A stretch of 64,000 nt of DNA from assembly GCF_001613545.1 (NCBI RefSeq), contig NZ_BDCO01000003.1:124001-188000 (forward strand), in the 5' to 3' direction. The notes below the pieces were generated by a model. The model searched no databases. It worked only from the letters and a program-made list of their open reading frames with translations, and had not been told where the DNA came from. The position numbers were made by a program, and so were the translations under genes. The DNA is from Terrimicrobium sacchariphilum (lineage in GTDB: Bacteria; Verrucomicrobiota; Verrucomicrobiia; Chthoniobacterales; Terrimicrobiaceae). Shown piece by piece: positions 52,030 to 54,178 of the stretch. The number at the start of each line of letters is the position of its first letter. The first letter of the stretch is position 1.

Positions 52030-53067
52030 CTACTGGAAGATAAACATCGGCACCTGTCCGACGAGTTCATTCGGGGACGACGGAACGCCGGTGGCCGGGT
52101 GGCGCGCGGACTCGACCTCGATGGTCTTCTTTTGTCCATCGCGAACGATTTCCACCGCGACCTTGTCTCCAGCGGTGAGGAAGTAGCTGGCGTCGATGAT
52201 GTCTTCCGGCTCAGTGATTTTTACGGAACCGATCTGAAGAAGAATGTCGCCGGGTTTCAATCCCGCCTGGGCGGCTGGAGTATCGGAACCCACTTCGGAG
52301 ACGCGCACATTGGAGCCGTCGATTTTTTCATCCTGCTCCTCGGCCTTCACGCCCAGCCAGCCATGGCGAGGCTCACCAAAGCGGGCGTAGTCCATGCGGA
52401 TCTTTTCCGCTGCTTCGATCGGTACCGCATAGCAGGAAGCTCCACCGCCGACTCCGGCAATGATGATCCCAACCACTTCGCCGTTGAGATTCAAGAGAGG
52501 CGCGCCACCAAAACCTGCCTGAACGGGCAGATTGGCGCGAATGTGGGTGGTGGTGAAATATTTCCCGAGAAATTTGCGATCAAACCCGCCGACGATGCCG
52601 AAGCTCGGGGTATCGGAAAATCCAGGGGTATAGCCGATTGTGAGGACCGGCGTGGACAGAGCGAGCTTGTGCGAGTTGCCCTGAGGGATGAACGGCGAGG
52701 ATATATCTGCTTTCAGCAGGGCGATGCCGCTGCGGGGATCAGCCACCAGCACCTTGGCGGGAATCTTTTCGTCTCCATACATGACCGTCACCTCCTGGGC
52801 ATTGGCCACGATGTAGGAAAGGGTGTAAATCGTACCCGAGGGGTCGGTGAAGAATCCGGTACCGGTCAGGCGACCATGATGATCGAGAGCCTCGACGCGA
52901 ACGACGGCATTGCGGCGCTCCTGAAAGACACGGTTGACCTCGCAGGTGATCTTGTTGCCGAGGTCGTCCTGACAGTAGGCGCCGAGGCTGGACAGCAGGA
53001 CGACTGCCGCAGCGGCCCAAAGCGGGGTGCCGGGGAGCGTGAGTTTAGAAACTGAGCGGTTGCTCAT
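52030..53067 (-). CDS. HtrA/DegP-like PDZ protein with degenerate catalytic triad (pseudoprotease)
   Basis: The 345-residue product has a signal peptide (hydrophobic core about residues 16-30), a trypsin-like domain (about 45-225) and one PDZ domain (about 236-318, with AGLKPGDILLQIG). The fold is recognisable (GTGFFTD, TVMYGDEKI, LNLNGEVVGI, AVPIEAAEKI), but the catalytic positions are changed. Family TNxHVV reads TLSYIV (His to Tyr85), TDLAVLK reads SGIALLK (Asp to Gly114), and GNSGG reads AGFGG (Ser to Phe186). Loss of all three suggests a binding rather than cleaving role. Its start overlaps the upstream gene by 23 bases. It is the last gene of a sigma factor operon. Confidence 0.9.
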   Translation of the reverse strand: MSNRSVSKLTLPGTPLWAAAAVVLLSSLGAYCQDDLGNKITCEVNRVFQERRNAVVRVEALDHHGRLTGTGFFTDPSGTIYTLSYIVANAQEVTVMYGDEKIPAKVLVADPRSGIALLKADISSPFIPQGNSHKLALSTPVLTIGYTPGFSDTPSFGIVGGFDRKFLGKYFTTTHIRANLPVQAGFGGAPLLNLNGEVVGIIIAGVGGGASCYAVPIEAAEKIRMDYARFGEPRHGWLGVKAEEQDEKIDGSNVRVSEVGSDTPAAQAGLKPGDILLQIGSVKITEPEDIIDASYFLTAGDKVAVEIVRDGQKKTIEVESARHPATGVPSSPNELVGQVPMFIFQ

Positions 53068-53479
53068 TACTCACGGGGCGGGCCTGAAGCACGTAATGCG
53101 GAGGGAGCGACCCATCAGCTCGTGCCGAGACCGGTAGGGTGTCGCCGATGGTTACAGGCCGCGAGGTGAGGGAAATCGCAGGAGCGCCCGACTCCGCCTT
53201 GGCCAACGTGGTGGCCGGCGTGACGGATCTGGGAGACATGATGACGACGGACGCGCAAACAGCCAGCGCGGCAATCGTCGCGTAGGCGTATTGCGGAACG
53301 TGGAACCCCGGAGCGATGGCCGAGATCCGATCCCAGATGATTTTCCACGTCGGGCGACGCAGAAGCTCCGCCCTCTGGCGGCGGTGAAATTCCTGAACAA
53401 AGTCCTCGAAATATCCCGGAGGAGGTTGCTCGTACCGCTTCATTCGCAGTAACTTCGAAATGTCAGGATTCTCTCCCAT
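53045..53479 (-). CDS. Single-span membrane protein, candidate anti-sigma factor
   Basis: The 144-residue product has a cytoplasmic-type N-terminal part (about residues 1-60, with ISKLLRMKRYEQPPPGYFEDF and a basic RRQRAELLRRP helix), one hydrophobic segment (about 64-81), and a C-terminal part of about 60 residues, presumably periplasmic. The topology and position directly after an ECF sigma gene (8-base gap) match RseA or MucA-type anti-sigma factors, but no named anti-sigma domain or zinc motif (HxxxCxxC) is seen. Role inferred from context only. Confidence 0.75.
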   Translation of the reverse strand: MGENPDISKLLRMKRYEQPPPGYFEDFVQEFHRRQRAELLRRPTWKIIWDRISAIAPGFHVPQYAYATIAALAVCASVVIMSPRSVTPATTLAKAESGAPAISLTSRPVTIGDTLPVSARADGSLPPHYVLQARPVSNEQPLSF

Positions 53480-53487
53480 GGCAGTGG

Positions 53488-54075
53488 TCAGCGTTTGATA
53501 AACTCTTCCAGGTAATTTTGCAACTGGCGGTGTGCGTAAAACAGCCGCGATCGTACGGTCCCTTCCGATATCCCGAGCACCTTGGCGATTTCCGCGTGCG
53601 GCATCCCCTGAATATCGAACATCGTAACGACCGCTCTATGTTCATGAGACAGCTTCTGCATGGCCTCGTTCAATCTTTGTTGAAGTTCGCTCAGGTTTGC
53701 CTCGTGGCGCGGGTCGTTCCCTGAGGTGACTTCGATGAATTCCCGGTCATTCTGAATATTCGAGTCAATGTCATCGAGGCTCATTCCCTGGCGGCGGCCC
53801 CGTTTCTTGAGGAAGTTGATCGTCATGTTCACGGCGATCGAATGCATCCACGTGTAGAAGGAGGAATTTCCCCGGAATCCGGTGATCGAACGGTAGGCTT
53901 TGGCGAAAATTTCCTGCAGCAGATCGTTTGTGTCCTCGTGATTGGAGGTCATGTTATACACGAGGCCGTAAAGGCGCGGACTGTAGCGCACGACCAGATC
54001 CGAGAATGCGTCGGGGTCCCCCGCACGCGTGCGGGCGACAAGCTCTTCATCAGGAATCTCGGGTTCGTCTGGCAT
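53488..54075 (-). CDS. RNA polymerase ECF-type sigma factor
   Basis: The 195-residue product has sigma region 2 (about residues 20-90, with DTNDLLQEIFAKAYRSI and FYTWMHSIAVNMTINFLKKR) and region 4 (about 130-185, with MPHAEIAKVLGISEGTVRSRLFYAHRQL forming the promoter-binding helix-turn-helix). There is no region 1.1 or 3. This is the RpoE-like ECF plan. The ATG at 54075 (MPDEPEIPDEELVART) is preferred over 54090. It is the first gene of the three-gene operon and is probably autoregulated, as is usual for the family. I could not identify its promoter. Confidence 0.94.
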   Translation of the reverse strand: MPDEPEIPDEELVARTRAGDPDAFSDLVVRYSPRLYGLVYNMTSNHEDTNDLLQEIFAKAYRSITGFRGNSSFYTWMHSIAVNMTINFLKKRGRRQGMSLDDIDSNIQNDREFIEVTSGNDPRHEANLSELQQRLNEAMQKLSHEHRAVVTMFDIQGMPHAEIAKVLGISEGTVRSRLFYAHRQLQNYLEEFIKR

Positions 54076-54178
54076 GAAGCGAGCCCGCACGCTTAACAGA
54101 TTTTTTTCGCGAAGCGCACCGGAAATTGCGTCTGCCCCTCACAAATCGCACTCCGCGAGGGAATAACGCGGGTATTTG

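Follow-up and report, generated by a model that had tools for sequence, protein, structure and literature searches.

An operon of an ECF sigma factor, a membrane protein of anti-sigma descent and a catalytically dead HtrA-like protein conserved among relatives of Terrimicrobium sacchariphilum

The RpoE-RseA-RseB system of E. coli, which operates with the proteases DegS and RseP, brings together an ECF sigma factor, a single-span anti-sigma factor and a periplasmic regulator in one operon, and RseB must leave RseA before DegS cuts (PMC8103513). In Pseudomonas, the comparable AlgU-MucA-MucB system, with AlgW and MucD, has an HtrA-family gene in its operon and relies on a PDZ domain that reads aromatic C-termini. 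Non-protease use of an HtrA-family protein is represented by MamO, a magnetosome protein that differs from the one described here in domain make-up and role and is related to it through a weak profile match only. On the cytoplasmic side, the class I anti-sigma domains, to which the zf-HC2 zinc-finger factors belong, bind region 2 of their sigma factors through helix 4 (PMC7406223), while the class II factors of the CnrY type have a very short sigma-binding region. On the periplasmic side, the signalling domain of FoxA binds FoxR and shields it from proteolysis (PMC11637429). No HtrA pseudoprotease linked to an anti-sigma factor turned up in a search of the literature.

The locus described here was found in a stretch of 64,000 nucleotides of the T. 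sacchariphilum genome (the window). It shares with RpoE-RseA-RseB the combination of an ECF sigma factor, a single-span protein in the anti-sigma position with its N-terminus inside, and a periplasmic protein, and the same genome encodes DegS-like and RseP-like proteases. Unlike that system, it has a dead HtrA in place of RseB as the co-encoded periplasmic protein, and its anti-sigma protein ends in a Phe like that of outer-membrane proteins and carries a domain without helices 1-3. The presence of an HtrA-family gene recalls the AlgU operon, but here the HtrA lacks the catalytic triad and is encoded directly behind the anti-sigma gene. The membrane protein has a segment homologous to the post-finger part of the zf-HC2 factors, and homologues in the same operon keep the finger, whereas the window protein and its counterparts in the order have lost it. 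The predicted sigma-binding region is very short, as it is in CnrY, but no sequence relation to CnrY was shown and the window protein derives from a class I domain. Finally, the shielding role proposed below for the dead HtrA, as a periplasmic partner at the C-terminal domain of the anti-sigma factor, resembles that of FoxA toward FoxR, although folds and signal are unrelated.

Layout and conservation of the three genes

A preliminary description of this DNA had reported three minus-strand genes, with a gap of 8 bases between the first two and an overlap of 23 bases between the last two, and had called the first of them an ECF sigma factor. The tandem arrangement and its coordinates were confirmed (Table 1), and so was the sigma factor, which has Pfam matches to Sigma70_r2 (2.1e-16) and Sigma70_r4_2 (7.7e-15), corresponding to regions 2 and 4 without region 3, and scores 119 bits against the sigma70-ECF superfamily model of NCBIfam (cut-off 42.9). 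A GTG at 54090 is likewise open as an alternative start of its reading frame. The genome holding the trio measures 4.75 Mb.

Table 1. Features of the sigma, membrane protein and HtrA-like genes (positions in the window)
Feature	Coordinates	Strand	Basis
ECF sigma factor, 195 aa from ATG	53488..54075	minus	Sigma70_r2/r4 (Pfam), sigma70-ECF (NCBIfam)
Single-span membrane protein, 144 aa, predicted anti-sigma factor without zinc finger	53045..53479	minus	ORF, homology
Conserved cytoplasmic segment, residues 9-42 (KLLRMKRYEQPPPGYFEDFVQEFHRRQRAELLRR)	53354..53455	minus	mean column conservation 0.75
Transmembrane span, residues 64-82	53234..53290	minus	hydropathy 1.88 over 19 residues
Periplasmic C-terminal tail, residues 127-144 (PHYVLQARPVSNEQPLSF), candidate PDZ and groove ligand of the HtrA-like protein	53048..53101	minus	conservation, Phe144
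23-base overlap, HtrA start codon within the tail codons of the membrane protein	53045..53067	minus	equal length in most order relatives
HtrA-type protein with PDZ domain, 345 aa, catalytically dead	52030..53067	minus	Trypsin_2, PDZ_2
Signal peptide or N-terminal anchor, residues 14-32 of the HtrA-like protein	52972..53028	minus	hydropathy 1.5 over 19 residues
Tyr85, at the catalytic His position	52813..52815	minus	alignment with intact paralogues
Gly114, at the catalytic Asp position	52726..52728	minus	alignment; Gly in 47/47 of the order
Gly187, at the catalytic Ser position	52507..52509	minus	alignment with intact paralogues
PDZ carboxylate-binding loop R234-HGW-L-G-V240, retained	52348..52368	minus	order alignment
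PDZ domain, residues 237-319	52111..52359	minus	PDZ_2 1.1e-15

No ECF promoter motif of the GGAAC type was seen upstream of the sigma gene. Just upstream of it, members of genus g2 share a conserved TTTTTCTCCGC about 13 bases before TTTGATA (seen at 54076-54150 of the window and at L102, L109, L111 and L114-L120), and loci outside g2 have only a TGnTA-like box in common in this region. Many members of the order also carry a second, paralogous sigma factor on other contigs (G050:C12, G027:C12, G042:C4 and others), 32-44% identical.

The window and 46 of the 58 relatives sampled from its order carry the tandem trio in the same gene order; most of the sampled genomes without it were either incomplete or among two of 0.9 Mb. 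At the resulting 47 loci of the order, the three genes follow one another on one strand, in most cases with little space between the first two and a 23-base overlap of the last two. The membrane protein was found in 49 of the 58 genomes, with a close HtrA homologue directly behind it in nearly all. Within the order the sigma factor is 61-83% identical, and the membrane protein and the HtrA often only 30-50%, with the trio still recognizable where these two have fallen to 30-45%. Searches of the class and phylum recovered the trio from most families of the class, and one locus outside it (L225) has all three genes. The flanking genes dusB and panE accompany the trio in its closest relatives but not in more distant ones, except that dusB adjoins it at L171 too; what is conserved as a unit is therefore the trio alone. 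The coupling of the three genes in one operon, which the preliminary description had proposed, thus extends to most families of the class as a linkage beyond chance.

The same description had held that relatives carrying the sigma factor without the other two genes would count against such coupling. The survey bears this out by half: f24, f35 and most outgroups have the sigma factor without an HtrA, but the membrane protein is kept. Since some clades retain these two genes alone, the HtrA is a clade-specific component, not an obligatory one. The genome G049 likewise has a membrane protein without an HtrA neighbour. A different separation occurred in G034 (L265, G034:C11; L266, G034:C180), where the sigma gene lies alone on another contig and the membrane protein-HtrA pair is intact; the pair now stands behind a response-regulator gene.

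The membrane protein and its periplasmic tail

Pfam searches returned nothing for the 144-residue protein of the window and nothing convincing, including no anti-sigma family, for 44 homologues from the order, and a profile search of the PDB with the membrane protein was equally empty. Its single span is flanked by 11 Lys and Arg residues on the N-terminal side and by 5 on the C-terminal side, an excess that places the N-terminus inside. More informative were its distant relatives. Several outgroup membrane proteins start with C...HxxxCxxC followed by an 'LKRYEQPP' segment, their own zf-HC2 matches lying below the Pfam cut-off. In the full-length class members L216-L220, zf-HC2 scores 22.2-35.9 bits (Pfam cut-off 22.2), and these proteins also have a segment of the 'LKRYEQPPxYF' type, a span, a matching tail and a dead HtrA next door. 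An hhalign comparison of the order proteins with the finger-bearing outgroup proteins (98%, E 2.7e-13) covers the stretch between the end of the finger and the end of the span, with residues 9-42 of the window protein aligning directly behind the HxxxCxxC of the homologues. This segment is equivalent to the part that just follows the zinc finger, probably helix 4 of a class I anti-sigma domain. The window protein itself has neither the HxxxCxxC finger nor a zf-HC2 match.

Because L216-L220 combine zf-HC2 with the matching segment and tail, the window protein is by ancestry a zinc-finger anti-sigma factor minus its finger. Judged by these alignments, it is a descendant of a zf-HC2 anti-sigma factor that lost the finger and kept the helix 4 equivalent. 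The earlier statement that the protein matches no anti-sigma family stands for the window sequence when searched with HMMs, but not for its homologues in the same operon, which match zf-HC2. The mapped anti-sigma segment is without helices 1-3, a point against the reading proposed below, in which the finger-less protein would still bind sigma. Within one operon the zinc finger of an anti-sigma factor is seen to disappear in steps, which should be useful for asking what a minimal anti-sigma domain is. At one locus (L221) the membrane protein has a segment of the 'LKRYERPxPxYxDNFL' type twice in tandem, possibly a doubled sigma-binding region.

In the periplasmic half, conservation is confined to the C-terminal tail, with a mean of 0.63 vs 0.28 in the preceding linker. 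This conserved, Phe-ending tail is a new finding of the present analysis. Its motif is Y-V-L-x3-P-V-S-Y-x4-S-F-COOH, and the order consensus is [HR]-Y-V-L-x-x-R-P-V-S-Y-E-x-x-x-S-F. All 47 membrane proteins of the order with an HtrA neighbour end in Phe (Phe144 in the window protein). A pattern from YV to the terminus, defined after the alignments had been inspected, occurs in 45 of the 47, compared with a mean of 9.3 and a maximum of 17 in shuffles that kept the last residue, and 39 of those 45 have a Y/F-V/I/L pair 14 residues before the end. Position -2 is Arg, His or Ser, not hydrophobic, in 18 of the 47.

Taking all loci together, an aromatic end (Phe or Tyr) was found in 86 of 89 membrane proteins with an HtrA neighbour vs 25 of 53 without one, the three non-aromatic exceptions with HtrA belonging to one genus with a very degenerate HtrA. 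The YV...F pattern was seen in none of 19 class members and 2 of 33 outgroups that have no HtrA. On the sigma tree, HtrA was gained or lost about 3-4 times, and the link to the aromatic end is not significant there because there are only 3-4 independent contrasts. The overlapping HtrA start codon does not account for the conservation of the tail: the Phe is kept at 11 order loci where no such start is possible, and 10 of these have the YV motif as well. In genus g29 of family f15 (L173-L176), the membrane protein ends in Met at three of four loci.

PDZ pockets of HtrA proteins accept aromatic residues at positions 0 and -2 (PMC8545111), and one DegP substrate binds PDZ1 and the protease domain simultaneously (PMC11642142). 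The tail looks like such a two-point HtrA ligand. The suggestion in the preliminary description that the PDZ domain could grip the C-terminus of the membrane protein gains support from this Phe-ending tail, the contact itself being a predicted one. The HtrA-like neighbour would be only one of its partners. Genus g23 (L140) keeps the tail without a dead HtrA and has an intact, membrane-anchored, single-PDZ HtrA (L263, L264); together with the Lys-Phe ends of f24, also without HtrA, this means that the tail must serve another partner too. The f24 membrane proteins (L177-L183, L249-L254) are about 270-300 residues long and end in Lys-Phe, or Gln-Phe in one.

The dead HtrA-like protein and its intact paralogues

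The product of the third gene matches Trypsin_2 (3.4e-14) and PDZ_2 (1.1e-15) in Pfam, and its nearest solved structures are DegP, DegQ, MucD, AlgW and DegS. The genome encodes two intact HtrAs as well (L001 and L002), in which His, Asp and Ser are present; the window protein has Tyr, Gly and Gly at these positions. L002 is membrane-anchored with a single PDZ domain, like DegS. An M50 protease of the RseP type (L161/L269), with HELGH and PDZ domains, is also encoded in the genome.

Loss of the triad is common to the whole family. None of the 47 proteins from the order has kept His, and all of them have Gly in place of Asp; Ser is left in one. Nor was a complete triad found in another 41 class members or at four additional loci, Ser alone being left in four; the most diverged family, f15, is not alignable at all three triad positions. 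Altogether, about 92 HtrA-like neighbours were examined and none has an intact triad, which, with the Gly in 47 of 47, points to an old pseudoprotease family and not to a decaying gene. The replaced site is itself conserved in the order alignment (Gly114 in 45 of 45; Gly188, Pro190 and Gly196 invariant), which argues for selection and rules out decay of the HtrA gene. What had been noted for the window alone, that the triad is gone and that the protein could not work in signalling as a protease, is therefore true of the family, which is dead throughout. In genus g29 of f15 (L173-L176) the HtrA-PDZ protein encoded by the third gene is highly degenerate and about 290 residues long.

The ligand-binding side of the protein is well preserved. 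The carboxylate-binding loop of the PDZ domain keeps the pattern R-x-G-W-[VLI]-G-[VIA] in the order, with G239 in 45 of 45, W237 in 44 of 45 and R234 in 42 of 45, and is close to the HtrA PDZ loop motif (PMC11642142). An AlphaFold model of the HtrA-like protein, based on three near-identical alignment rows, had a mean pLDDT of 32.5.

A possible envelope-stress switch and its alternatives

The reading that we favor, tentatively and at slightly short of an even chance, is an envelope-stress switch of the RpoE-RseA type in which the co-encoded pseudoprotease acts as a periplasmic regulator by capping the tail of the anti-sigma factor. The predicted contacts and direction of regulation would be as follows. 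Homology and operon position suggest that the short cytoplasmic end of the anti-sigma factor, with the finger lost and the helix 4 equivalent kept, would bind sigma. Its tail would be a built-in HtrA ligand, comprising a cleavage-site-like Y-V-L strand, about 14 residues and a free terminal Phe. The dead HtrA would bind this tail via its intact PDZ carboxylate loop, perhaps also holding it uncut in the groove, and so cap it. Misfolded outer-membrane proteins with similar aromatic ends would compete for the dead HtrA and free the tail, which an intact HtrA (e.g., L002) could then cut; the RseP-like protease would finish the cleavage and sigma would be released. The dead HtrA would in this way do the job of RseB, but in the guise of a decoy of the very protease that makes the site-1 cut. 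Stated for the class as a whole, the proposal that the dead HtrA is a decoy protease that binds an HtrA-type degradation signal of the anti-sigma factor, with outer-membrane protein ends acting by competition and not by allosteric activation, is put forward with somewhat greater reserve.

Should the cap model be true, a pseudoprotease would read the signal for a sigma/anti-sigma switch, the bacterial equivalent of the decoy logic of other dead proteases, and a switch that turns cutting into a signal may here be run by a protein able only to grip. It would also offer a first concrete way into the study of envelope stress signalling in Verrucomicrobia, through a sigma factor that is highly conserved there. 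The model hinges on one terminal Phe, one PDZ loop and one gene, and is thus sharply testable.

The same parts could be connected differently. The tail might be a degradation signal for the intact DegS-like HtrAs, with the dead HtrA a co-transcribed periplasmic chaperone, an output of the sigma factor that makes no contact with the anti-sigma factor. Such a division of labor would account for the tail of g23, which persists beside an intact membrane-anchored HtrA, and for the Lys-Phe ends kept in f24, and inactive HtrA variants can indeed protect cells as chaperones (PMC11642142). It sits poorly with the absence of the YV...F pattern from the class members without HtrA, and with the pair in G034, undivided although its sigma gene has moved away; we consider it unlikely, yet deserving of attention. 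Alternatively, the dead HtrA could be an activating adaptor that promotes site-1 cleavage, either in mixed trimers with an intact HtrA or by handing over the tail. HtrA proteins do act as trimers in which a PDZ domain activates the neighboring subunit (PMC11642142), and intact paralogues are at hand in the genome, but the dead HtrA is only 27-29% identical to them, which makes mixed trimers doubtful, and an adaptor seems to us an improbable role.

Far less credible is a rewired active site that would leave the HtrA-like protein an active enzyme. The altered site is strongly conserved, as one would expect of such an enzyme, but the nucleophile position has no conserved Ser, Cys or Thr, and the His and Asp positions are occupied across the class by Gly, Ser, Tyr, Ala, Asp, Asn and other residues. 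As for chance neighbors that include a decaying protease gene, nothing was found in favor of this reading and the survey refutes it, given that across the class the genes keep their order and spacing, their frames stay open and the altered site is conserved; we assign it practically no weight. Among the other trypsin-like genes of the genome that holds the window, two further Trypsin_2 matches (L005 and L006) lie side by side at G000:C2:2705111-2706554.
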